DNA from: a virus
Reading direction: 5' to 3' (one strand)
Virus record (IMG/VR): IMGVR_UViG_3300030020_000077
Location: 1-29,239 of that record
DNA length: 29,239 nt
Part shown: in pieces, positions 9,837-25,810 of the stretch
Layout: every line of letters begins with the position of its first letter
Numbering within the stretch: the stretch's first letter is position 1
Notes under the pieces: generated by a model
The model's database searches: none
What the model was told of the DNA's origin: nothing
What the model saw: the letters and a program-made list of their open reading frames with translations, nothing else
Made by a program: the position numbers and the translations under genes

Positions 9837-12364
9837 CAGACCGGTGCAGTCTTCATGGCCCAGCCCACCTCGGTGCCAATCTCAGAGGCACTGGCGTTGG
9901 TCTGGACGTAGACGTTGGTGGTGAGGCTGCGACCCGACGCCGAGCTCGCTGCGGCCGGCGTTCCGGGAATGCCGCCCTGGCCGGTCGGCAGATTGCCCTC
10001 CAGCGGCTTGATTCCGGCGAAGAACTGCGACTTCATCTGCGCCTCGGGGATCACGAACTCCGGACCCGCCTCACCCACCAGGGCCAGGGTCGGGCTCGTG
10101 ACGTAGCCGCCGGTGGCCAGCCCGATGGCGCTGAGGGCCGAGCCGATGACCGGGATGGAGTTCACGGCGTTCTTCGCCGCCGTGATCCCGCCGGTGACCA
10201 CGGACTTGATCGCGTCCCCCACCTTGGAGGCTGCCTTCTCGATCCCAGAGACGAGCCCGTGCACGAGATCGTCGCCCCATTTAAGGAGGACGCTGCCGGC
10301 GTCTCCCAAAGCGGTGACAATCTTGAGGGGAATTCCCTTCACGAAGGTGATGACGTCGCTGATGCTGGTCACGATGGCACTCTTGAAGTCGGCCCATGCC
10401 GTTTTGGCCACGCCCTTGATGTCTGATCCGAGATCCTCGAGGCCGGCGACGATCTTGTCCGGGATCCCGGAGATGAAGGTGACGATGTCGTCGAAGGCCT
10501 TGACGACGTCGGACTTCACCGTGTTCCAGTGCTTCACCAGCTCGAGCACCAGGAGGCCGATCGGGCCGGTCACGACCAGGAAGATCGTCTCGGCAATCAC
10601 CTTCAGGTGGTCCTTGATGAAGTCCCACACCTTGACGGCGGCCGTCTTGATCGCGTTCCAGATGTCCTTCAGGACCGACTCAACCTGCTTCCAGTGGGTC
10701 ACCAGCAGGGTGCCCACGGTGACGACGCCCATGATGATCAGACCGATGGGACCGAATGCCGAGTCGGCCGCAGCCCCAGTCGCCTCGAAGGCTTCGTCGA
10801 CCTCGGGGGCCGTCTCGGCGACCTCTCCCATTCCTGCGGTGACTTCCTCGCAGGATGCGGACACCCCTTCCAATTTGGCCTGGATCGTCGACAGCGCCTC
10901 GTCGACCTCGGGGGCCGTCTCGGCCAGCTTCTGCATTGAGGCGACCTGGCGCTGGGTCGACTCCGATGCCTTCAGTTGGCCCTTGGCATTGTCGAGCGCT
11001 GCGGCGGTCGCCTCGATGGTGGCGTCTGTGGCGCTACCGCTGGCCTGCTTCTGCAGGTTCAACTGAGCAGAGAGCAGCTTCACCTGCTGACTCAGGAGCT
11101 CGGTGCGCTCGGCCAGGGCATCCTGTGCCGCCTGGTCCTCGTCGGCCATCCCGGCGGCGCCCTTGAACGTGTCGCCCAGATGGAGCAGGGACGAGGCCAT
11201 GTTCTTCGTGGCCCCGACCATCTTGCCGGCGGTCTCCACGGAGAACTTCAGGACGGCAGCACCGAGCACGGCACCGATCACCCCGGCCAGCACCTCGGCT
11301 GCGGCCTTGTGCTTCCCGAACCAGTCGACGATCTGGGTGACGACCTTGATCGCGCTAGTGATGATCGGGATCAGCTTCTCGCCGAAGGAGACCGACAGGT
11401 TCTCGACCTTGGCCTTGGCCACATCCATCTGCCCGGCCAGGGTCTCGCCGTAAGCGGAGGCAGCCCCGTGGGTCTTCTTGCTGATCTCGTCGATGACCTT
11501 GCCGATGGTCCCCTGATCCAGCGTCAGCTTCTCAGTCGCCTTGGACACGGCCTCGTGCGCGTTCACCAGGGCGATCTGAGCCGGAACACCGGCCTTGATG
11601 ACGCCGGCAGCCACCTCTTCCTGGGTCTGCTTCAGCTTGAGCTGCGCAGTGGCGACGGCCTCGGTGGCGGTGTGGATCGACGCCAGCTTCCCCGATCCGA
11701 TATCGAGGTTGATCCCCATCTGCGTCAGGACCCGGGTGCTGCCGGCCATGGCCTTGCCGAGGAGAGTGGATGCTTCAGAGAGGCTGATGTGCTTGAACCG
11801 GGCCAGGTCGGCCGCGCTCCCGAGGAGCTTGATGGCCTGGGTGGGCGAGCCGGTCGAGGTCGTGAGCTGGGTCAGGGCGTTCGAGGTGTCGATCGAGTTG
11901 AACCCGAGATTCGACATCGATCCGTAGGCCGCGTCCAGCTTGGGCTTCAGCTTGTCGAAGCCGGAGCCGGTCGCCTCGACGGCCGTCTTGAGGTTGGCCT
12001 GGGCCACGTCGAACTTGTCGGCCATCTCGACCGACTCGGTGCCGAAGGCCACCAGCCCGGCGGCGCCAGCGGCGAGGGTGACGCCACCGATGGTGGACAT
12101 CAGCTGGCCGAACTTCTGGCCCTTGGTCTCGGCCTGCTCGAGCTTCTCGCCGATCTTGGAGACCGACGACCCGAAGGGGATGCCCCAGTTCTCCAGCTTC
12201 TGCCCGAGCTTGTCGAACACGCCGCCGGCCTTCGTCGTGGCCCCGTCGAAGGAGTCGCCGATGGAGGCAGCCGCCACGTCGGCCTTGGCCGCGCTTCCTG
12301 CCAGGGCGTCGTCGAGGGACTTGGCGTCGCCCGAGATGTAGACCGCTACGTTTCTCGTGACCAT
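9836..12364 (-). CDS. Tape measure protein
   Basis: The 842-aa product is the longest in the window and lies where a tape measure is expected. Its N-terminus (MVTRNVAVYISGDAKSLDDA) and the following Ala-rich helices are typical. Residues about 85-330 match the TP901-type tape measure core (FGTESVEMADKFDVAQANL, GFNSIDTSNALTQLTTSTG, AMAGSTRVLTQMGINLDIG). Hydrophobic segments lie near the middle and in the C-terminal half (VLAGVIGAVLGAAVLKF, AFGPIGLIIMGVVTVGTLL, VIAETIFLVVTGPIGLLVLE). The C-terminus contains IGLATGGYVTSPTLALVGE, a common tail motif. An internal repeat, AETAPEVDEA, occurs twice 35 codons apart. Tape measures set tail length, so 842 residues suggest a tail of roughly 120-130 nm by the usual 0.15 nm per residue. 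The start abuts the preceding stop. Confidence 0.93.
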   Translation of the reverse strand: MVTRNVAVYISGDAKSLDDALAGSAAKADVAAASIGDSFDGATTKAGGVFDKLGQKLENWGIPFGSSVSKIGEKLEQAETKGQKFGQLMSTIGGVTLAAGAAGLVAFGTESVEMADKFDVAQANLKTAVEATGSGFDKLKPKLDAAYGSMSNLGFNSIDTSNALTQLTTSTGSPTQAIKLLGSAADLARFKHISLSEASTLLGKAMAGSTRVLTQMGINLDIGSGKLASIHTATEAVATAQLKLKQTQEEVAAGVIKAGVPAQIALVNAHEAVSKATEKLTLDQGTIGKVIDEISKKTHGAASAYGETLAGQMDVAKAKVENLSVSFGEKLIPIITSAIKVVTQIVDWFGKHKAAAEVLAGVIGAVLGAAVLKFSVETAGKMVGATKNMASSLLHLGDTFKGAAGMADEDQAAQDALAERTELLSQQVKLLSAQLNLQKQASGSATDATIEATAAALDNAKGQLKASESTQRQVASMQKLAETAPEVDEALSTIQAKLEGVSASCEEVTAGMGEVAETAPEVDEAFEATGAAADSAFGPIGLIIMGVVTVGTLLVTHWKQVESVLKDIWNAIKTAAVKVWDFIKDHLKVIAETIFLVVTGPIGLLVLELVKHWNTVKSDVVKAFDDIVTFISGIPDKIVAGLEDLGSDIKGVAKTAWADFKSAIVTSISDVITFVKGIPLKIVTALGDAGSVLLKWGDDLVHGLVSGIEKAASKVGDAIKSVVTGGITAAKNAVNSIPVIGSALSAIGLATGGYVTSPTLALVGEAGPEFVIPEAQMKSQFFAGIKPLEGNLPTGQGGIPGTPAAASSASGRSLTTNVYVQTNASASEIGTEVGWAMKTAPV
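10794..10924 (-). repeat. Short direct repeat inside the tape measure gene
   Basis: A 26-bp identical tract occurs at 10794-10819 and 10899-10924, exactly 105 bp (35 codons) apart, encoding the peptide AETAPEVDEA in both copies. The intervening codons are less alike, so this may be the remains of a 35-residue unit duplication in a coiled-coil region. Confidence 0.75.
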
Positions 12365-12907
12365 CTACCGGAACCCGATCTCACCGAACGTCTCGTCGAC
12401 CACCGCGGCGATGGCCGTGGTGATCTCCTCCTCCTTCGCCTCGAGGGCGGGCGAGAGGTAGGCGGGGTGGCTGTTCTTGGCGGTCCACGGGGCCACGCCG
12501 CCGGACCGGGACTGCCCCGCCTTGCTCACGAGCTCCGGGTGCTTCTTCGAGTGCGAGACGAGTGTCCGTCCGCCGCCGCCCTTGGCGACGGCGACCTCGA
12601 ACACCGGATGGCGGACGAACCCCTTGCCCCGGTTCTCGATAGCTGCGGCGTCAGGTGCACGAGCGCCACCGGCGACCACCTTCACCGTTGCGCCGTTGCC
12701 GGTCACGCTCACACGGAGCGAGCTCGGGATCCTCCGGGAGAAGGATGCCCGGGTGGCGGCCTCGGTCTTCACGATCTCGGCGGCGACCTTCATCTTGGAG
12801 CGGAACCCCTTGGACAGCTCGGGCGATGCCCGCCGAAGATCCCGGGCCAGATCCTTCAGCCCCGTCGTGTCGACGTAGACGTTGGCGTTGGCAGTCGACT
12901 CACGCAT
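12365..12907 (-). CDS. HK97 gp10-like tail completion protein
   Basis: The 180-aa product starts at an ATG preceded by AGGAG, and overlaps by 8 nt the end of the frameshifted chaperone. Its shape matches the HK97-gp10 family: an N-terminal stretch with VDTTGLKDLARDLRRASPEL, a helix with MKVAAEIVKTEAATRAS, a beta region (SLRVSVTGNGATVKVVAGG) and a C-terminal helix ending IAAVVDETFGEIGF. The motif HPVFEVAVAK and PAYLSPALEAKEEEITTAI near the C-terminus fits the family. Members join heads to tails or cap tails, and are usually encoded before the tail tube gene. Here the gene lies after the chaperones and directly before the tape measure, an unusual place that leaves its precise role open. Confidence 0.75.
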   Translation of the reverse strand: MRESTANANVYVDTTGLKDLARDLRRASPELSKGFRSKMKVAAEIVKTEAATRASFSRRIPSSLRVSVTGNGATVKVVAGGARAPDAAAIENRGKGFVRHPVFEVAVAKGGGGRTLVSHSKKHPELVSKAGQSRSGGVAPWTAKNSHPAYLSPALEAKEEEITTAIAAVVDETFGEIGFR

Positions 12908-13363: not shown

Positions 13364-14394
13364 TCGAGCGTCGTGTCGGTCGACACGGTGGTGAACTGGA
13401 TCACCGGGTCGGTGCCGTCGTCCAAGATGTCGAAGGGCACCGACACCGTGATCACTCCTGGGCCGTCCACCTCGGGCGGGGTGCCGTTCAGATAGATGGC
13501 CGGGCACAGGATGCTCAGCGAGGCGTAGTGCCCGACACCGGCCAGGGTCGGCGAGGTGAAGTTGAGCTGGAGCGTCACCGGGGTATCGGCGTAGTAGGCG
13601 TTGTACATGTCGGTGAGGTTGGCGAACTCCACCACCAGGGTCCCGGTGTACTTGCGAAAGGCATTGGCCAGCTGCTCCCGCTTGGTCGTCGACCCGAGGG
13701 TCTGACGGGTCGTGTCCATGGCGTTGGTGCCCTTGATCGAGACCGACTTCACCGTCCCGACCGGAGCCGAGCCGCCGGAGATCGAGGCGACGCCGGAGGT
13801 CGTGGTGACCGTCCCGCCGGTGAGCAGCGCACCATCGACACCGGCGAAGATGTTCGCCGCCGTGTACGACGGGGCGGTGTAGCTGGTCGCCGTGGCCTCA
13901 TTGAACCCGTCGAAGGTGACGACGAGCTTCACGATCTCTGCCGCGCTGACCGAGAGCTCCCACTCCGTGATCTTGCAGCCGTTGTAGGAGAACGCCTGGA
14001 TGGTGCCGTTGGTCTCCGGACGGCCGGACTGGAGGGACAGCGACAGGCCCGTCAGGTCGGCGGGGACGAAGATCGCCGTGTAGGCGGTCGTCGAGCCGAT
14101 CTGCGTAGGGCCCGAGATGCAGCTGCCGAGCATGTTCTTGAACAGCAGGCCCATCTGGTTGATCATGACTTCCATCTCGACGGGGCCCTTGGCCTCGAGC
14201 ATGGTGAGTCGACGGTGGGCGCCGAGGACGAAGAGGCCGCCGTGGAGCGCCTCTCCCTGGACGGTCTTCTTGGCACCCATGACCTTGTCGGAGTCGACGG
14301 GCAGCCAGTTGGCCGGGGTCGTGAAGGTGCCGACGGTGCCCTCCTGGGCGAATCCCCAGGTCGCTCCGAGGCCAGATGCGATGCCTGTTGCCAT
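13360..14394 (-). CDS. Major tail (tail tube) protein
   Basis: The 344-aa product starts MATGIASGLGATWGFAQEGT, the common opening of siphovirus tail tube proteins (a sampled 'G..G.....E...G' strand). It continues TFTTPANWLPVDSDKVMGAK, LTMLEAKGPVEMEVMINQMG and FSYNGCKITEWELSVSAAEI, a recurring set in tail tube beta-sandwich folds. The C-terminal third has an added beta region (STTKREQLANAFRKYTGTLV and VTLQLNFTSP, then EVDGPGVITVSVPFDILDDG). It precedes the chaperone and tape measure genes, and the gene order supports the call. The protein should form stacked hexameric rings around the tape measure. The start overlaps the preceding stop (TAATG) and the stop overlaps the chaperone start. Confidence 0.9.
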   Translation of the reverse strand: MATGIASGLGATWGFAQEGTVGTFTTPANWLPVDSDKVMGAKKTVQGEALHGGLFVLGAHRRLTMLEAKGPVEMEVMINQMGLLFKNMLGSCISGPTQIGSTTAYTAIFVPADLTGLSLSLQSGRPETNGTIQAFSYNGCKITEWELSVSAAEIVKLVVTFDGFNEATATSYTAPSYTAANIFAGVDGALLTGGTVTTTSGVASISGGSAPVGTVKSVSIKGTNAMDTTRQTLGSTTKREQLANAFRKYTGTLVVEFANLTDMYNAYYADTPVTLQLNFTSPTLAGVGHYASLSILCPAIYLNGTPPEVDGPGVITVSVPFDILDDGTDPVIQFTTVSTDTTLD

Positions 14395-17434: not shown

Positions 17435-18073
17435 CTACGTGAGGATGATCACCGGAGCGACCGCCTTCTGGGAAGGCGAGGCGATGGTCGCTGCCGCGGT
17501 GGCCCCGAGCGCCGAGCCGGCGGTCATCGACTGGAACAGCGGACCACCGGTGTACCACTGGTAGTTGATCCCGTTCGGCGTCGCCATCGACGTCGCCGTG
17601 GGCACGGTCGACGCCGTGATGGACACACCGGCGTAGATGAACCCATTGGGGGCGTTGGCCGCCGTGATCAGCTGCGGCGTGGCCAGCGTGAACGTGTACA
17701 GCCCCGACGAGGTCCCGGGGGAGGCGGCGGGGATCGCCGTGGTCGTGCCGTCCGTCGACTGACCCAGGAGCGCCGGGGCGGACCCGGTGCCTGCGTACAG
17801 CGCGGCGAACTGGTGGGTCGGGGTCGACGCACCGGTGGCACCCACCAGGATGCTGACCTTGGAGATGACCACGCCGAGGTCCACCGGGACGGGGACGGCG
17901 ACGAGGACACCGGAGCCGGCCAGGGCGCCGTCGGTGTAGTTGCCCCACCCGAAGCCGGGCTCGGCGTTGGACCGGGCCGGCAGGTTGGACTGCACGACGT
18001 TGGACGTCTGCCCCAGCAACGCCAGGAACGGGTTGGACAGGGGGTACTTCGACGAGACGAGATCACCAGGCAT
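17435..18073 (-). CDS. Beta-rich virion-like protein after the capsid genes
   Basis: The 212-aa product follows RBS AAGGGG. It begins MPGDLVSSKYPLSNPFLALL and is otherwise rich in Ala, Thr, Ser and Gly with alternating hydrophobic strands (GVLVAVPVPVDLGVVISKVS, then LYTFTLATPQLITAANAPNG, and FIYAGVSITASTVPTAT). It ends with a helix-poor tail (AATIASPSQKAVAPVIILT). The strand pattern is that of a jelly-roll or carbohydrate-binding-like domain, as in head fibres, decoration proteins or other virion surface proteins. It lies immediately downstream of the hairpin that follows the second capsid gene. I cannot name a family; a capsid decoration protein is the simplest idea. Confidence 0.65.
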   Translation of the reverse strand: MPGDLVSSKYPLSNPFLALLGQTSNVVQSNLPARSNAEPGFGWGNYTDGALAGSGVLVAVPVPVDLGVVISKVSILVGATGASTPTHQFAALYAGTGSAPALLGQSTDGTTTAIPAASPGTSSGLYTFTLATPQLITAANAPNGFIYAGVSITASTVPTATSMATPNGINYQWYTGGPLFQSMTAGSALGATAAATIASPSQKAVAPVIILT

Positions 18074-18157: not shown

Positions 18158-19738
18158 TCAGAAGGTGATCGAGGTGACCGCGCCCTGGGGTGCGGCGAAG
18201 CCGGAGCCGGTCGCCACCGAGATGGCCTGCCCGTAGCGGGCGAGCAGGGCCACATAGTTGTAGACCTGGAACCTCACCCCCAGGGAACCCGAGAGCACCT
18301 CGCGGTAGACGTTGGTCCGCATCTCGCCCTGGAAGAGCCAGATGTCGTCCCAGTTGGCGGCGATCGCCACGTCCTGGCCGGAGCCACCACCGGTGGTGTC
18401 GGTGGTCGTCACGTTGTCGTCGACGTAGATCGGCGCACCGAAGTTGGTGCGACCGGCCAGGCCCTCGGCCACCCGGGGACTGTCGTCAATGGCGGCGACG
18501 TTCCACGGAGCAGCGTCGGTGGCCTCGACCAGCGGGCGGCCGTTGGCGTCGAGCGACGACGCGTACCAGAAGTACCGCGACCCGTGGAGCACGAACTTCA
18601 GCTGGCTGAGGTCGTAGCGCTTGCGGGCGATCTGGGAGGCCATGGCCGCCAGCACCGAGATGAAGTGCTGCCCCGAGGGGGAAGCGTCGGTGTAGGTGAT
18701 CGAGTTGGCGCCCCAGTTGTTGTACGGGTACAGGCCGAGCAGGTGGCCGCCGTTCAGCTGGCCGGTGTTGACGCCGTCGCCGGCGAGCACCTGCTGATCC
18801 AGGAAGGCGTTGTACTGCTGGACCAGGTTGGTCGTGATGACCTCGTCGACCAAGCCATGGGGCGACTGCTCGAGGAGCTGCAAAGCCACGTCGGACTCAC
18901 CGGCCACAGTTTTCACGTTCGCCTGCACGGCGGAGTCGGTCCAGTCCTGCGACACGACGCCGGCGTTGTCCGCCTGCTGGTACCCGACGGCCGTACCTCC
19001 GGCCACCTTCGGGATGTTGATGGAGTCCGTGCCCATAGGCAGGTCCATCTGGCGGCACAGGGCAGCGGCGACCAGGTGGGCGACGAGCTGCGGGATGAAC
19101 TCGTCCGGGAGCCACAAGGGCGGCACGAAGTACCCGCCGGAGCCGTCGGTCCGGTTGGGCTCGACCCGGTACTCGAACGGGTTGAGGCTCGTGCGACCCT
19201 CGGCCTGCTCGACCTGGCTCAGCGCCCGACGCTCCCGGCTCTTCGCCCGCTTCGGCATCTCGACGTCCATCTCGATGCGGTGGCGGTTCAGGCGGGCCAG
19301 CGAGGACTCCTGGTCCGTGGTCTGGAAGGTCACGCCCGGCACGAGCACCTGGGCGAGGTCCCGGTAGTACGAGATCCCGTCGGCACCGCGGCAGGTGTCC
19401 CTGCGGTAGGTCATGGGCTCGGCGCCGACCTCGGGGGTGCTCCGATGCAGCTCGGCGGCCTCGTCCCGGCGACGGACGATCTCCTCCTGGTCGGCGATGC
19501 GCTTGTCGAGGTCCCTGACCTCGGCCTCGAGCAGCTCGGACTGGGCCCGGAAGGCGAGCTCGGCGGCCCGGAAGGACTCGATCTCGTCCTCGCCGGGGGC
19601 GGTGTCGCCCGAACGGGCCTCGAACTCGGCCCGCACGGTCTCCCGCTGGTCGATGAACTGGGTCCAGGCGTCGACGGCGGCGTTGCGCTTGGTGTGCAGC
19701 CGGTCGAGGAGCGTGGGCTCGGTGGTGGTGGGGGGCAT
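18158..19738 (-). CDS. Major capsid protein, second paralogue, with coiled-coil N-terminus
   Basis: The 526-aa product starts at the ATG with RBS AAGGAGG at 19738 (a slightly longer in-frame start lacks a good RBS). Residues 10-100 form a charged coiled coil (LLDRLHTKRNAAVDAWTQF, then ELLEAEVRDLDKRIADQEE), like the scaffolding delta domain of HK97 gp5 that the prohead protease removes. Residues about 185-526 form an HK97-fold coat: PFEYRVEPNRTDGSGGYFVP, then SDVALQLLEQSPHGL, ANSITYTDASPSGQHF, and near the end GSLGVRFQVYNYVALLARYG. The coat part aligns with the preceding gene across many motifs. It is probably the main coat subunit because it has the usual scaffold, but either paralogue could be. 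Confidence 0.85.
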   Translation of the reverse strand: MPPTTTEPTLLDRLHTKRNAAVDAWTQFIDQRETVRAEFEARSGDTAPGEDEIESFRAAELAFRAQSELLEAEVRDLDKRIADQEEIVRRRDEAAELHRSTPEVGAEPMTYRRDTCRGADGISYYRDLAQVLVPGVTFQTTDQESSLARLNRHRIEMDVEMPKRAKSRERRALSQVEQAEGRTSLNPFEYRVEPNRTDGSGGYFVPPLWLPDEFIPQLVAHLVAAALCRQMDLPMGTDSINIPKVAGGTAVGYQQADNAGVVSQDWTDSAVQANVKTVAGESDVALQLLEQSPHGLVDEVITTNLVQQYNAFLDQQVLAGDGVNTGQLNGGHLLGLYPYNNWGANSITYTDASPSGQHFISVLAAMASQIARKRYDLSQLKFVLHGSRYFWYASSLDANGRPLVEATDAAPWNVAAIDDSPRVAEGLAGRTNFGAPIYVDDNVTTTDTTGGGSGQDVAIAANWDDIWLFQGEMRTNVYREVLSGSLGVRFQVYNYVALLARYGQAISVATGSGFAAPQGAVTSITF

Positions 19739-20833
19739 GATGCCTCCTTCTGGAATTGGGCGCACCGGGACGGTGGCTCTGGTGGTTGGTGACGTCCCGG
19801 GTGGTGCCTCTCGCTCAACATGGGTGGTGCCGCCCGAAGGCGGTCCGGCGCACGATGAGTGGGGTCCGGCGCGGGGTTACTGCGTGGGTCAGTAGTTGGT
19901 CTGGACGACGGTGCCGGTGCCCTGGATCACCCAGATGCCGGCGGTGTACCGGTTGGTGATGGCGGCCACGGAGGCGTGGAGCTGGATCCGAGCGCCCAGG
20001 GCACCCGAGAGCGGCTCACGCATGACGGCGGTCTGGACCGGTCCCTCGAGGAGGATCAGGTCCGTCGGGCGCAGGCAGGTGATGAAGTCCTCGTTGCCTC
20101 CCGCACCCTGCGTGGCCGGGATGGCGTCGTCGAGGAACACGGGCCAGGAGATCAGACCGCCGACGGGGTCGGGGGTCTCCTCGTCGGCGCCGAGGAAGAA
20201 CGGCGACGAGATCCCGAAGGGTCGCCCTGCAGTGTCCTCCTGGGTCGTCAGCCACGACCAGCGGGCCGTGCGCATGAGCCAGACCTCCGGAGGGAGCAGA
20301 CGGCTGTCGCCGAGCTGGGCGGCGGCCTGGCCGAAGTAGGGCCACATCCGGGCGCCCGTCGGGGAAGCGTCGGTGTAGGTGATCGAGGTGTCGGCGGCTT
20401 GGATCCCGAGGAGCTGGTTGTTGGTCGACCCGGTGCCGATGAGCAGCTGGGTCTCGACGTCGCGGTCGTAGTCCTCCGCCATGTCCATCAGGAGCGCCCA
20501 GTCGAGGTGGGCGCCGGCGGGGCTCTGTTCGAGGGCCTGCAAGGCCACGTCGGCCTGGCCGGCCAGAGTTACCACGATCGACGAACCGGCAGAATCGGTG
20601 ATGTCCTGGGCGGGCACACCCTCGATGTCGGCCACGGGGGCGGTGTTCGTTCCGGTGCCGATGATGGGCAGGTTGATCTGGGAGACGCCCGGCGGGAGCT
20701 CGAACCGAGGCATGAGCCCGGCCAGTACCCGTCCCGGCCGCTTGGCTGTGGCGAAGAGCTGGTTGAGCCAGATCGGCGGGCTGAAATAGCCACCCTGGCC
20801 GTCGGTCCGGTTGGGCTCGACCCGGTACTCGAA
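19142..20833 (-). repeat. Matching DNA tracts shared by the two capsid genes
   Basis: A 36-bp identical tract occurs at 19142-19177 and 20798-20833, encoding FEYRVEPNRTDG in both capsid genes. A second 27-bp identical tract occurs at 18678-18704 and 20361-20387, encoding SITYTDASP. Elsewhere the genes have diverged considerably. The entry spans only the first pair of tracts. Confidence 0.85.
19830..19843 (-). terminator. Short TTCG-loop hairpin between the capsid genes
   Basis: CCGCC-TTCG-GGCGG forms a 5-bp stem with a stable tetraloop within the 150-bp gap between the two capsid genes. There is no T-run after it. Its type matches the larger hairpin after the second capsid gene, so both may set mRNA levels or ends; alone it is too short to be a strong terminator. 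Confidence 0.45.
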
Positions 20834-21340
20834 GTCACCGGCCCGGAGCGACCGCCAGGCCCGGTCGGCGCGTTCGGCGTCGATGACCCGCATCTCCTGG
20901 GCGTGACGGGCCAGGCGCTCACCAGCGCCCGTCACCCGGTCCGTCAGGAGCAGGTCGCGGTAGTACGAATGCCGGGCGTGGCGGTGATAGGTCAGCGGCT
21001 CGGACGTGACGGTGACCGCGGTGGCCCGGGCCGGGCGGGCACGGGCGTCCCGACGGGCCAGTGCGCCCCGGGTCTCGATTCCGGTGGAATCGGACGCCAG
21101 GGGGACGTAGGTGGTGATCGACTTCACCGGCTGCGGGTCGCCGGCGAGGGTGATGCCCCCGTCGGCGTCGATCGAGTAGTCGTCCTGGAGGTACTCGTTG
21201 AAGTCGACCTCGTAGACCACGTACGAATCGGAGAAGTCGATCACCCAGACGTAGCTGTCGTCGGCCTCGGGATCTGCCGCGACGGAGGCGGCGATCGCCG
21301 CCCGAAGCCCGTCCTGCAGCTGGCCGTAGGTCATGGTCAT
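19889..21340 (-). CDS. Major capsid protein, first paralogue, with scaffold-type N-terminal domain
   Basis: The 483-aa product starts at an ATG overlapping the protease stop as ATGA. Residues about 28-82 form a small beta domain: YVWVIDFSDSYVVYEVDFNE, then ADGGITLAGDPQPVKSITTY, a type seen in phage protease or scaffold proteins. Residues about 115-135 (EPLTYHRHARHSYYRDLLLT) and about 168-483 align with the following gene: DFEYRVEPNRTDGQGGYFSP, QADVALQALEQSPAGAHLD, TSITYTDASPTGARM and, near the end, GALGARIQLHASVAAITNRY. That is an HK97-type coat fold. The long Arg/Ala-rich linker between could be cut by the protease during maturation. Two complete HK97-fold coats in tandem with different N-termini are unusual. 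It may form vertices or mix with the second paralogue. Confidence 0.85.
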   Translation of the reverse strand: MTMTYGQLQDGLRAAIAASVAADPEADDSYVWVIDFSDSYVVYEVDFNEYLQDDYSIDADGGITLAGDPQPVKSITTYVPLASDSTGIETRGALARRDARARPARATAVTVTSEPLTYHRHARHSYYRDLLLTDRVTGAGERLARHAQEMRVIDAERADRAWRSLRAGDFEYRVEPNRTDGQGGYFSPPIWLNQLFATAKRPGRVLAGLMPRFELPPGVSQINLPIIGTGTNTAPVADIEGVPAQDITDSAGSSIVVTLAGQADVALQALEQSPAGAHLDWALLMDMAEDYDRDVETQLLIGTGSTNNQLLGIQAADTSITYTDASPTGARMWPYFGQAAAQLGDSRLLPPEVWLMRTARWSWLTTQEDTAGRPFGISSPFFLGADEETPDPVGGLISWPVFLDDAIPATQGAGGNEDFITCLRPTDLILLEGPVQTAVMREPLSGALGARIQLHASVAAITNRYTAGIWVIQGTGTVVQTNY

Positions 21341-22839
21341 GCCACACCCCTTCGCGGTCCGGTGCTGAGCGCAGCGAGTCGAGCCCGGGCCTCCGCTCCG
21401 TAGTTGGGCAGCGCCAGTGAACCCTGGGGCGGCGCCAGGGCCGGCTCGAGATCGGCCGGGTCGCCGTCCGGGTTGGCCACGTCCAGAACGTTGGAGACGC
21501 CAGCCAGCCCGGCGTCGACGGCGGCGTCGATGTCCTGCAGGGATCGCACGATCGCCGGGATGTCCACGTCGTCGGCCGTGTGGAGCGCCTCGAGGGCCTG
21601 CTGCAGCTGGTCCGAGTTGGCCGCCGAGAGGACCTTGCCCTCCCGGAGCTCCCGGAACAGGGCCGACTTCCGGAACAGGGCCACGATGCGCTCGACGGGC
21701 ATCTGCTCAGACGCCCGACCGATCAACCGCTGGCGCATGGCCACGGTGCCCCCAGTGGTCGGATTCGCCCCGTAGTTGACGAGGCTGACGTCGCCCTTGT
21801 CCAGGCTCACCTCGTTGATCCACCGGCGATCGAATTCCGGGTTCCACTCCTGGCGGGTGACGCGGAAGGCGAAGGACATCTCGTCGAGGTCGCCGCGCTC
21901 GACCGCCGACCGCATCGCCTGCACGTACATGTTCTCCGGATCGAGCAGGGCCTCGGAGTGGAGGCCGGTGACGCCGTAGACGGGGCTGCTGGCGCCGTCG
22001 GTCTCCTCGGAGAGCTTCAGCGTCCCCGGCTTGGTCCGGGCCAGAGTCATGCCCTCGTGGTTGAGCAGGAAGGCGACGTCGGCGCCCTCGTTGAGGGTCT
22101 TCCCGAACGCCCCGATGCCGACCGACTCGACCCAGGGGCCCTGCCAGTCCTCCATCTCGTACTCGGCGTCGGTGACCGAGGCGAAACCGGTGAAGCGGAG
22201 GTTGGTCCCGCCGGTGCCGTTGGCGATCTCCCGGAGCTCGAACTTCGGTCCGGTCGACACCCGGGACTCCGGCACGCCACGGAGCTCGGCCCGGATCGCC
22301 GTGGCCGGGATCTTCGGAGCGGCGTTCGCCTGGTCGTCGGCGTTGGCATCGCCCTCCCCGGAGCCGCCGCACTGCGGACACTCCAGGTCCTGGTCGTTCA
22401 GCGAGATGGTCCCCTCGCCGTTGCAGCGGTTGCACTTGTTGTCGGTGGCGGCCAGCTCCTCGAGCAGGTCCTCCCGTGACTTGAGTTCGGGCACGTCTTC
22501 CTCCTTGACGCCGGCATCGGTCAGATGCGCGGCGAGGTGCTTCCAGACGCCCTCACGGTCGGCGTCGGGGATGGTGGTGCCCTTCCGGGCCCCATTCAGG
22601 ACACCGATGCCCGTGGAGCAGGCCAGCGTCGATGCGGATCCGGGCAGGCCGTCCTTCGACACGAAGTGGTGGATGAACTTCCACGCCGACTTCGTTGTCT
22701 CGTCGCCGTCAGGGTCGACCCAGGCGAAGGTGTCGTCGCCGATCGCTTTCGTCAGCGGTGTCTCGAGCTTCTTCTCCTGGGCGGGACCATCCCACTCGCC
22801 GTCGTCGGTAGCCGTGTGGTGGACCGGTGTGGCGGGCAT
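21337..22839 (-). CDS. Prohead protease (S78-type) with DnaJ-like zinc motif and scaffold-like C-terminus
   Basis: The 500-aa product starts after RBS GAGG. Residues 35-118 form an N-terminal domain with SAWKFIHHFVSKDG and REGVWKHLAAHL, found on some phage proteases. Residues 136-163 hold two CxxCxGxG units, C136NRC139NGEG and C154PQC157GGSG, as in the zinc-binding centre of DnaJ. Residues about 197-370 are the protease: FTGFASVTDAEYEMEDWQG, FLLNHEGMTLART with H261 and DEMSFAFRV with S322, the probable catalytic His and Ser. Residues about 375-460 are helical (REGKVLSAANSDQLQQALEA) and likely act as a scaffold. The protein should cut the capsid scaffold parts during prohead maturation. It is much longer than HK97 gp4 (about 225 aa) because of the added domains. 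Confidence 0.88.
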   Translation of the reverse strand: MPATPVHHTATDDGEWDGPAQEKKLETPLTKAIGDDTFAWVDPDGDETTKSAWKFIHHFVSKDGLPGSASTLACSTGIGVLNGARKGTTIPDADREGVWKHLAAHLTDAGVKEEDVPELKSREDLLEELAATDNKCNRCNGEGTISLNDQDLECPQCGGSGEGDANADDQANAAPKIPATAIRAELRGVPESRVSTGPKFELREIANGTGGTNLRFTGFASVTDAEYEMEDWQGPWVESVGIGAFGKTLNEGADVAFLLNHEGMTLARTKPGTLKLSEETDGASSPVYGVTGLHSEALLDPENMYVQAMRSAVERGDLDEMSFAFRVTRQEWNPEFDRRWINEVSLDKGDVSLVNYGANPTTGGTVAMRQRLIGRASEQMPVERIVALFRKSALFRELREGKVLSAANSDQLQQALEALHTADDVDIPAIVRSLQDIDAAVDAGLAGVSNVLDVANPDGDPADLEPALAPPQGSLALPNYGAEARARLAALSTGPRRGVA

Positions 22840-22847
22840 GGGTTACC

Positions 22848-24059
22848 TCAGTTCGCCTTGTCACCGCCCTGCGTGACGGCCGCAGGCATCGGGGAGGAGT
22901 TGAGCGGCTGGTCGTAGGCGGAGAGGGCTTCGTCCGGGACCGGCGGGAGGTCTTCGGCTTCGCGGATCTCGGCGTTGTTCATCGCTCCGATGACCCGGGC
23001 GATCTGGTAGGCGGCCCAGCGCTGCAGGGTGTCGCCGCGCAGGCGTTCGGAAAGATCGAAGGTGACGAACTGGCCACGCGGCAGCCAGCTGGTCAGGAGG
23101 TCTTCCCACCGGCAGAGCCAGATCAGCAGGGTGTTGCGGACATAGCCGAGCTCCTGCTGCTCGATGCCGGCGCCCCACGAGGTGTCCTTCGTGACCATGC
23201 CGATCATGTGGGGCGGAACCCGGTAGAGCATCCCGGAGATCACCGAGGCGCTGAACTGCATCTGCTCCAAGAACTGGATGTCCGCCAGGTTCATGGTGAT
23301 CGGAACGAACTCGGCACCGCCGGTGAGCACGAGCGGCAGGTGTGATCGGTTGATCCCCTGGTGGGCCTCGAGCAGGGCCTGCTTCATGGCCTTGGCCTCT
23401 TCGACGTCCAGGTCGCCGGGGACCTGGATCACCCCGTCCGGTCGGGCCGAGTTGGCGTAGAACGCCCCGCTGTAGAGGTCCTGGGCCCGGGCCATCCCGA
23501 GCACGTTCCGGAAGTTCTCGATCGGGTTCAGGCCGACAAGTCCCTCGGGGAGCGACAGGGCCATCGCCCGGGTCACGGTGTCGGGATCGGCGAGCTGGTT
23601 CCAGTAGCGAACCTCGACGGCGCCGCTGCTGCCGCGGCGGACTCGGGCGTGGTCCGGGTGGACCAGGCGGACCTGCTCCGGGTACATCTTCCGGTCCCAC
23701 GCCGTGATGTTCCCGAAGAGGTTCCCCCGGAGCAGCAGTGAGACAGTGCCCTGGGTGATGAAGTCCCGGCGGGTGATCTCCGACCATGGCTGCTCGATCA
23801 CCGTCGACGGGTCGATCTGCTTGGCCGTGGTGTCACCTGTCGCGGTCCACTGCCGGATGGGCAGCGTGGCGAGCGAGTCGGCGATGATCGACACCGAGCC
23901 GTAGACGGCGGCGAGTTGGAGTGCCGTGTGCTCCGAGACGCTCACTCCGGCGGCCGTGACGCCCTGCTGGCCGTTCGACGGAGGAGCAGTGCTGCCCCAC
24001 TGGGCAAGCGGATTGGCACCTCGGGTCTCGAAGTGGCGGTCCCTGGTCAGGATCTCCAT
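22848..24059 (-). CDS. Portal protein (HK97 family)
   Basis: The 403-aa product carries typical HK97-portal features: TALQLAAVYGSVSIIADSLA near the N-terminus, ITRRDFITQGTVSLLLRGNL, EQVRLVHPDHARVRR, then GLVGLNPIENFRNVLGMARA, and GAFYANSARPDGVIQVPGDL. The second half has FLEQMQFSASVISGMLYRVP, PPHMIGMVTKDTSWGAGIEQ and FDLSERLRGD, the pattern of the crown and stem helices. Twelve copies form the ring at one vertex through which DNA enters and the tail attaches. Length (about 400-430 residues) is normal. The gene lies 3 nt after the LSm-like gene and 8 nt before the protease gene. Confidence 0.93.
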   Translation of the reverse strand: MEILTRDRHFETRGANPLAQWGSTAPPSNGQQGVTAAGVSVSEHTALQLAAVYGSVSIIADSLATLPIRQWTATGDTTAKQIDPSTVIEQPWSEITRRDFITQGTVSLLLRGNLFGNITAWDRKMYPEQVRLVHPDHARVRRGSSGAVEVRYWNQLADPDTVTRAMALSLPEGLVGLNPIENFRNVLGMARAQDLYSGAFYANSARPDGVIQVPGDLDVEEAKAMKQALLEAHQGINRSHLPLVLTGGAEFVPITMNLADIQFLEQMQFSASVISGMLYRVPPHMIGMVTKDTSWGAGIEQQELGYVRNTLLIWLCRWEDLLTSWLPRGQFVTFDLSERLRGDTLQRWAAYQIARVIGAMNNAEIREAEDLPPVPDEALSAYDQPLNSSPMPAAVTQGGDKAN

Positions 24060-24062
24060 GGG

Positions 24063-24308
24063 CTACTCATCGAGCTGGGCGAAGGCGACGTTCTCCCGCG
24101 GGACGAACGTCTCCCCTGCCATCGGTGTCCGCTGGCCGCCGGGCTCGAGCAGCGAGGCTGCACGCAGGATCAGACCGTCCTCCATGGTTGCGGTCAGCGA
24201 GCCCTCGATCGTCTGGCCGGACTGGAGGTGGACGATGATCCGCTTCCGGAGGACCGACTCGATCCACTCGACGGGCCCGGTCTCAACGTCCTGGTGGCGA
24301 AGGGACAC
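24063..24308 (-). CDS. LSm-like small protein between terminase and portal
   Basis: The GTG at 24308 follows CAGGAGGT, a strong RBS, and gives 81 residues; the longer open frame upstream crosses the terminase gene without a start of its own. The core reads RIIVHLQSGQTIEGSLTA, then MEDGLILRAASLL and FVPRENVAFAQL. This is the order of strands in the Sm/LSm fold ('V.V.L..G....G.L....D..L.L' and a closing 'vP..nV' strand). The N-terminal 20 residues look helical, as in LSm proteins. Similar small proteins lie between terminase and portal in some actinophages. Whether it binds RNA or DNA, or is a connector component, is unknown. Confidence 0.65.
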   Translation of the reverse strand: MSLRHQDVETGPVEWIESVLRKRIIVHLQSGQTIEGSLTATMEDGLILRAASLLEPGGQRTPMAGETFVPRENVAFAQLDE

Positions 24309-24322
24309 GGGTGACCTCCTGG

Positions 24323-25810
24323 TCAGATGTCGTTCAGGTTGATCACTCGGGACTTGGTCTTCGGCCGGCGGGAGTTTCCGAACAGGGCGAGGGTGCAGGA
24401 CACCAGCGGGGAGATGTCGACGTCCGAGCTCTTGCGGTCCCAGGCCCACGCCTCGCCGAGCTTGCGGGTCTTCGCCCCGTCGATCGCGGCGTCGAGCTCG
24501 TCGTCACCGAGGTGACGGAGCGTGCCCTGGACGATGGCGTCGTAGAAGACGCCACATGCCTGGGCGTATTCCCTCGTGGTGATGATCATGGCCAGCGACC
24601 GGCCGGCCGCGTCCATGCCCACCGCATCGGTGATCTGAGACTCGAGGGACCCGGCGGGTCCACCAGGGTCGATCACCACGGCGTAGGCTTTCCACTTCTT
24701 GACGAGCTCGGCGACCCGCTCGACAACCCACCCCGTGCCCCGATCGTTGTCGAGGACCTCGATGTGCTGCTTCCCGTCGGGACGGTCGCCAGCGATCGAG
24801 ATGCAGGCGCTGGACCGGTCCGGGGTGACGTCGACGGCGAAGCACACCGGATTCTTCACCTGCGAGTCACGGTCCCGACAGGCCCGCCACTGCTCCGGGG
24901 GGACCACCCTCGTCGAGATGTCGTCGGTCATGGGCCAGTCGCCGATGCCCAGTCGTTCCACGGCGAACTTCCTCATGCTCAGCGAGAGTCGCTCGTGGCC
25001 GACATGCTCGGCTGAGATGCGGATCCCGAGCGCGGGATTGGCCTCGGCCCAGTGCTGCTGGTCGGCGACGAAGTCCGGGGTGATCTTGTCGATCTGGCCA
25101 TCGGCCGACCACTCGAAGTAGGCGAGTGACGGGTCCTGGCCGGACATGCCCCGCTCCCGGATCCGGGCGAACACCACGCCATTGTCGTCGATCTCCTGGT
25201 CGACGGCCGAGCCGGTGTACCAGATCTGCGGGTTCGGTCGGGCGGACAGCGTCGGCACCAGAGCGCCGTGCGTCGCCTCGGGGATGTCCATCGCCTCGTC
25301 GAGCACCAGGCAATCACCGGTGAACCCACGACCGCCGCCCTTGGTCCGGGTGCGGAAGCGGATCCGCTGGCCGGACTTCAACTCGATTCCCTCGTTGCCA
25401 TGGGCGTTGGACACCCGCTTGATCCGCTTCGACAGCTGCGGGGTCTCCTCGATGAGGCCGAGGATCCGACGGAAGTGCTCGAGCGAGGTGTCGAACTGGT
25501 GGGCGGAGTGGATGATCAGCCGCTCGCCGAGGACGAACAGACCGCCGAGCTCACGCGCCTCGAGGAGTCCGCCCTTGCCGTTCTGGCGAGAGACCATGGC
25601 GCCGACCTCGAAGGCCGCCCACTTCCCGTCGGGGCGCTCGCCGAGTGACTCGGAGAGAATGAACTGCTGCCACTCGTCGAGGTAGAGCCCGGCCATGGCC
25701 GACAGCTCGACGATCTCCGGGCCGGAGGTCGAGACGTACGGAGGTACCGAGCAAAGTCTAGGACGCTGGATGCCCCGCGATGCGAGCGGCGCGACGTCGA
25801 GCAAGGTCAT
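24323..25810 (-). CDS. terL: Terminase large subunit
   Basis: The 495-aa product has the packaging ATPase and nuclease. The N-terminal RPRLCSVPPYVSTSG and LYLDEWQQFILSESLGER are typical of actinophage large terminases. The ATPase carries a Walker A-like VSRQNGKGG (residues 73-81) with K79, and Walker B CLVLDEA (167-173) with D171 and E172. The nuclease (from about 320) has FAVDVTP with D327, VVIDPGG with D381 and DVDISPLVSCTLAL with D463/D465, a metal-binding set like RuvC/RNase H nucleases. The enzyme drives DNA into the prohead through the portal and cuts concatemers. The start overlaps the end of the small-subunit gene by 53 nt but keeps the conserved N-terminus. Confidence 0.95.
   Translation of the reverse strand: MTLLDVAPLASRGIQRPRLCSVPPYVSTSGPEIVELSAMAGLYLDEWQQFILSESLGERPDGKWAAFEVGAMVSRQNGKGGLLEARELGGLFVLGERLIIHSAHQFDTSLEHFRRILGLIEETPQLSKRIKRVSNAHGNEGIELKSGQRIRFRTRTKGGGRGFTGDCLVLDEAMDIPEATHGALVPTLSARPNPQIWYTGSAVDQEIDDNGVVFARIRERGMSGQDPSLAYFEWSADGQIDKITPDFVADQQHWAEANPALGIRISAEHVGHERLSLSMRKFAVERLGIGDWPMTDDISTRVVPPEQWRACRDRDSQVKNPVCFAVDVTPDRSSACISIAGDRPDGKQHIEVLDNDRGTGWVVERVAELVKKWKAYAVVIDPGGPAGSLESQITDAVGMDAAGRSLAMIITTREYAQACGVFYDAIVQGTLRHLGDDELDAAIDGAKTRKLGEAWAWDRKSSDVDISPLVSCTLALFGNSRRPKTKSRVINLNDI

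Follow-up and report, generated by a model that had tools for sequence, protein, structure and literature searches.

For a duplicated coat dedicated to the vertices, the T4-like phages are the textbook example. In T4 itself the vertex-specific duplicate is gp24, whose propeptide measures 10 residues compared with 65 in gp23 (PMC9958956). Among isolated phages, the closest relatives of the proteins described here are the major capsid proteins (MCPs) of Cluster J (Omega gp15, LittleE gp13 and Courthouse gp14; PHROG 2263), with ~33% identity. The N-terminus of a Cluster J capsid protein has been determined by N-terminal sequencing as DLDRNNGTGGYAVP, and in the related Omega a delta domain of 155 amino acids (aa) is removed (PMC3706429). 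Here we describe the IMG/VR virus record IMGVR_UViG_3300030020_000077 (29,239 bp, GC content 67%; this whole stretch is called the window below), which encodes two neighbouring coat proteins, MCP-A and MCP-B, on the minus strand like all its head genes. We propose that they are two co-assembling subunits of one procapsid, B being the bulk coat and A a minor specialised subunit that would most likely occupy the vertices like T4 gp24, and we give this model about even chances. The two genes are:

18158-19738, minus strand: MCP-B, 526 aa, HK97-fold coat with a delta domain (ATG at 19738; GTG at 19765 also open)
19889-21340, minus strand: MCP-A, 483 aa, HK97-fold coat paralogue without a coiled-coil delta domain (library matches, model and clade support of 100)

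The two proteins are 36% identical over 412 aa (tblastn, E 3e-53), or 40% identical over ~430 aa in a whole-record search (E 1.8e-53), and both match PHROG 2263 and Pfam Phage_capsid; judged by these alignments they are paralogues, chance being excluded. The start of MCP-B is most likely the ATG at 19738 behind AAGGAGG, which gives the 526-aa protein, rather than the GTG. Single-chain AlphaFold models, built on input alignments of 42 A sequences and 30 B-type sequences, reached a mean predicted local distance difference test (pLDDT) score of 79.5 for A and 74.4 for B, and both match HK97 gp5 (1ohg) over 257 residues, with Z 20.4 for A and 19.9 for B; Foldseek gave E 3e-13 for A. The fold covers these regions (AlphaFold and structural match):

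19901-20785, minus strand: HK97 fold of MCP-A, residues 186-480
18194-19108, minus strand: HK97 fold of MCP-B, residues 211-515

The possibility that one of the pair does not have the HK97 fold was rejected, because both models match HK97 gp5. A sequence-only reading of the window had taken the genes for duplicated HK97-fold coats and had proposed structure prediction of each protein; the duplication is confirmed by the 36-40% identity, the common families and the recurrence of the pair, and the fold by Z ~20 to HK97 gp5 in both models. No sequence relation to T4 gp24 was detected among the PDB sequence matches, where the A profile gave one chance match only, and the T4 capsid chain 5vf3_a was matched by fold only.

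The same reading had suggested a search for other genomes with the same pair, and this revealed that the arrangement is not a local oddity. Six viral scans (five started from capsid sequences or capsid alignments, the other from a solo element's coil protein) yielded a classified set in which A and B stand together in 45 distinct IMG/VR contigs, some of them near duplicates rather than independent lineages (29 entered the second tree), and in which 17 contigs carry A without B in view. In all of the 45 contigs whose flanks can be seen, the order is portal-protease-A-B. In the first tree (95 rows) all upstream copies form one clade and all downstream copies another, each with support 100/100, and the downstream (B) clade sits with single-MCP phages. 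A second arrangement, portal-A′-protease-S′, was observed in five contigs (L141, L145, L146, L160 and L161), with A′ sister to A and without a coiled coil. The second tree (103 rows) places A, A′ and solo copies in a single clade, with a Shimodaira-Hasegawa-like approximate likelihood ratio test (SH-aLRT) support of 100; A′ and B each form a clade of their own (99 in both cases), that of B lying near S′. One ancient duplication followed by joint inheritance of A and B would be the simplest account of these trees. Outside the metagenomic contigs the pair was not found: tblastn against 50,697 records of isolated phages returned only single-MCP mycobacteriophages, and the one match from a contig scan of cellular genomes was a solo A in Paraconexibacter antarcticus, in whose genome no B was found. 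Among 399 genomes of the class of this bacterium there were four more matches, three of them best to the single-MCP profile and the fourth (L106) weak and slightly better to the A profile.

Judged by the ratio of nonsynonymous to synonymous substitution rates (dN/dS), which is 0.13-0.52 in both genes and rough because of saturation and high GC, A and B are both under purifying selection. The A and B distances are correlated (r 0.85, permutation p 0.0005, n=17). A is somewhat faster-evolving than B in several pairs, as might be expected if it were a decaying duplicate, but we consider this extremely improbable, given that A stays open across deep divergence with dN/dS below 0.5, keeps invariant residues and accompanies B in 45 contigs. 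That A is a pseudogene was rejected on dN/dS and conservation.

The two coats differ in what precedes the fold:

19451-19711, minus strand: MCP-B residues 10-96, helical hairpin, the delta (scaffold) domain (AlphaFold, pLDDT ~90)
21128-21328, minus strand: MCP-A residues 5-71, small alpha/beta module, PHROG 760-like (AlphaFold and relatives)
20843-20965, minus strand: MCP-A residues 126-166, short helical pro-region SYYRDL...RLxRHxxEM

The hairpin of the B model consists of helices at residues 10-41 and 50-96, and a charged helical N-terminal region opens the single-MCP relatives and the complete B proteins examined; a coiled-coil delta hairpin was not found in the A model or in the A orthologues. 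B keeps a delta domain like that of its single-MCP relatives and A is without one, so that A is, on sequences and models, a coat paralogue and not a self-scaffolding gp5-type MCP. The pro-region helices SYxRD and RLxRHxxEM are present in A, B and single-MCP proteins alike. Before them the A N-terminus is variable: most A orthologues have no N-terminal domain beyond the short helical pro-region, and others carry a short helix or helical stretch, a zinc-knuckle motif (L126) or the beta module, which in the window is modelled as a helix and a four-stranded sheet with a disordered linker after it. This module is found on the A N-terminus in four lineages (the window, L005, L020 and L094), on the neighbouring protease in 15 other genomes (near the protease C-terminus in L045 and L131) and on both proteins in none, and it is absent from 16 genomes. 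By this distribution the module, mostly on the protease, behaves as mobile between two neighbouring, overlapping genes. A zinc-knuckle-like motif, CxxCxGxG, is another module found on both neighbours: it lies at residues ~133-163 of the window protease and at the N-terminus of the solo MCP-A L126:1385-2731. The earlier contrast between a small beta domain on one coat and a charged coiled coil on the other is borne out, and of the exchanged scaffold modules proposed with it the coiled-coil delta domain of B stands, whereas the beta module of A is not a scaffold tied to A. The idea of two separate scaffolds was rejected, because most A orthologues lack an extra N-terminal domain and the beta module is usually carried by the protease.

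Downstream of the pro-region, A and B share the motif FEYR/VEPNRTDG (alignment and Cluster J N-terminus, PMC3706429):

20798-20833, minus strand: MCP-A residues 170-181, FEYRVEPNRTDG, putative maturation site, cut after R173
19142-19177, minus strand: MCP-B residues 188-199, FEYRVEPNRTDG, putative maturation site, cut after R191

The aligned Cluster J cut falls after the R of E-x-R in this motif, and E-x-R (occasionally D-x-R) before G-x-GG is retained in nearly all A and B proteins listed. Because the motif, which the sequence-only reading had already noted as common to the two genes, aligns with the experimentally mapped Cluster J cut, it is taken as the probable maturation site of both coats, and since it is common to both, one protease probably trims A and B; the common motif thus supports the earlier proposal of one protease for two coats. 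The predicted mature coats comprise residues 174-483 of A (~310 aa) and 192-526 of B (~335 aa). In most A orthologues the pro-region is shorter than that of B, and in the window it reaches 173 aa because of the added beta module.

The two genes also differ in their expression signals, for which two further features are needed:

21337-22839, minus strand: S78 prohead protease (E 2.9e-17), its stop overlapping the MCP-A start by 4 nt (ATGA)
19739-19888, minus strand: leader of 150 nt between the A stop and the B start, with an AAGGAGG ribosome-binding site at 19743-19749

The prohead protease is encoded next door to both coats, as in HK97 gp5-type systems. Across the pair genomes, A starts at -4 or -1 nt relative to the protease stop in 21 of 28 cases; in the window the first ATG of A is the one in the overlap, and the script picked the second ATG. 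B is preceded by a leader of 124-829 nt across the pair genomes, and anti-Shine-Dalgarno pairing is stronger for B in 20 of 27 pairs (median -11.2 vs -8.8 kcal/mol, p 6e-4). The start/stop overlap of A, and the leader and Shine-Dalgarno strength of B, suggest that A is made together with the low-copy protease and B at a high level. About half of the MCP-B leaders contain a stem CGGGAG...CTCCCG just before the ribosome-binding site, often then CCCGAAAGG, with a variant GGGATC/GATCCC in L007 and L029; its clear form is absent from the window leader. Translational control of MCP-B by this stem is possible. The coupling of A to the protease gene, together with the presumably luminal module that A hosts, could also point to a co-expressed internal or portal-vertex protein that keeps the HK97 fold but lies outside the icosahedral lattice. 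This is very improbable in our judgement, as A has the full coat fold (Z ~20) and a conserved maturation site, and is the sole MCP of the satellite-like elements described below.

In the model that we favour, MCP-B would be the bulk coat, with a leader and a strong ribosome site of its own for translation and with its N-terminal helical hairpin acting as the built-in scaffold (delta domain). MCP-A would be an ancient specialised paralogue without a scaffold, presumably made in fewer copies by translational coupling to the protease, and would be a minor component of the shell that B scaffolds; its most likely place would be the pentameric vertices, by analogy with T4 gp24. The S78 protease would then cut both coats after the E-x-R of FEYR/VEPNRTDG, and the pro-regions would leave before DNA packaging. 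The N-terminus of A may serve as a free slot, which here would carry the small alpha/beta module into the procapsid lumen. The subunit specialisation, as in T4 gp23/gp24, that had been suggested from the window is supported as likely. A two-component Streptomyces encapsulin offers a precedent for the co-assembly of HK97-fold paralogues (PMC12407261). Several points weigh against this model. First, the sequence does not favour pentamers over hexamers, a portal-proximal ring or random positions for A; second, copy number is judged here only by the proxy of Shine-Dalgarno strength, and the A site is stronger in 7 of 27 pairs; third, the correlation of A and B distances is expected from common descent alone; and finally, the elements with A and without B may suggest whole A shells with another scaffold.

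Neither B nor a portal is in view in eight distinct elements whose MCP belongs to the A clade (L022, L024, L026, L047, L088, L109, L119 and L126; L023 was grouped with L024 and L044 with L047). L109, L119 and L026 are short contigs, so that missing genes may lie outside them, and a portal was not found in L022, L024, L088 and L126. A charged coiled-coil open reading frame (ORF) adjoins or lies near A in all of them but L088, and an S78 protease stands before or after A in all but L022. Integrases occur in three: L126, where integrase, TerS, own MCP and protease are all present; L022, which has integrase and TerS; and L088, which lies in the chromosome of Paraconexibacter antarcticus and has two integrase genes, a helicase and the protease, its TerS not confirmed. 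Four of the coiled-coil ORFs are alignable as one family, for which no homologue was detected in the pair phages at E 1e-3, and the coiled-coil genes of the tested elements gave no PHROG match. The second tree shows the solo copies at several positions within the A clade.

By gene content these elements are probable phage satellites, and they show that A can be retained as a coat gene without its partner and hint that it is usable with another scaffold. Since A has been taken up alone by small phage-satellite-like elements, it is a strong candidate for a shell-shaping subunit. We tentatively entertain the idea, as possible though doubtful, that in this siphophage lineage the HK97 coat was divided between two subunits, one for bulk that bears the scaffold and one for curvature that has none, and that satellites repeatedly stole only the latter and combined it with a protease and a separate coiled-coil scaffold, so that small heads would be built, or forced, around the helper's portal. 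A related explanation makes A a capsid-size determinant or a component of satellite warfare that biases curvature and was captured by satellites for making small heads from helper parts. It would account for the elements, at least eight, that lack portal and B and whose A copies are spread over the A clade, for the coiled-coil gene and S78 protease (each in 7 of 8) and for the terminase gene of several, but no helper-satellite pair is known, and elements with their own protease and sometimes TerL (terminase large subunit) are closer to self-made capsids; we regard it as quite unlikely. The solo elements also suggest that A is not restricted to vertices, which would fit a mixed shell without fixed positions, where A and B are interchangeable in hexamers and pentamers and A tunes stability or size. 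The cut site and fold common to A and B are consistent with such a shell, as is the irregular tiling and variable composition of two-component encapsulin shells (PMC12407261). A and B have nevertheless stayed two clades with no sign of homogenisation, which favours distinct positions for them; we consider a shell without fixed positions unlikely.

The remaining head genes follow the layout of a siphophage of the HK97/Cluster J kind, as far as gene content and order indicate:

24323-25810, minus strand: TerL (library match)
24063-24449, minus strand: small LSm-like ORF, PHROG 6750, between TerL and portal and kept in many pair phages
22848-24059, minus strand: portal protein (library matches)
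17435-18073, minus strand: putative decoration protein 3′ of MCP-B, its position conserved in pair and single-MCP phages

The product of 17435-18073 had no match in the family libraries PHROG and Pfam; past it lie connector and tail genes, among them the tube protein and the tape measure. The hosts of the pair phages are probably actinobacterial. MCP-B is interrupted in three relatives, and no MCP-A was seen interrupted. In L140 its pieces lie at 10550-11368, 12401-12766 and 13529-14278, with an Rfam group I intron at 11327-11585, and the gaps of the other two are L043:10900-11749 and L094:8687-8899; a capsid-gene intron is described in Cluster J LittleE (PMC3706429). At L005:7887 the reading of MCP-B continues into the following gene, and ~34 C-terminal residues are lost, through either an assembly error or a real deletion.

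Searches of isolated phages and of the open-access literature found no siphophage with two paralogous MCPs, and for this reason we regard the pair as a new siphophage case. If the model is true, it would be an independent and widespread two-coat case in HK97/Cluster J-type phages, in which just one copy bears a scaffold and the homologous cleavage site is mapped, and it would permit comparative testing of how the hexamer/pentamer division of labour originated and of capsid-size control; the solo MCP-A elements may reflect a satellite strategy in which the minor coat subunit is captured. These elements resemble capsid-forming phage-inducible chromosomal islands (cf-PICIs), satellites with their own MCP, protease and terminase (PMC10690885, PMC12409344). 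The cf-PICIs, however, encode portal and connectors (PMC10690885), whereas the solo elements are portal-less, for which reason they were not filed as cf-PICIs, and take their MCP from a two-coat phage family. The two-component Family 2B encapsulins likewise have two HK97-fold paralogues in one operon that co-assemble, and in Streptomyces one paralogue cannot form shells alone (PMC12407261), but they are cellular compartments with no portal and no maturation protease. The Cluster J MCP shares with the pair the delta domain, the protease/portal order, cleavage mapped at the homologous site and capsid-gene introns, but it is a single MCP, at one place per record. T4 gp23/gp24 are like the pair a duplicated HK97-fold coat in one phage with a common protease (PMC9958956); T4, however, is a prolate myovirus whose scaffold core is separate, whereas here an HK97/Cluster J-type MCP with a fused delta domain is duplicated in siphophage-like genomes.
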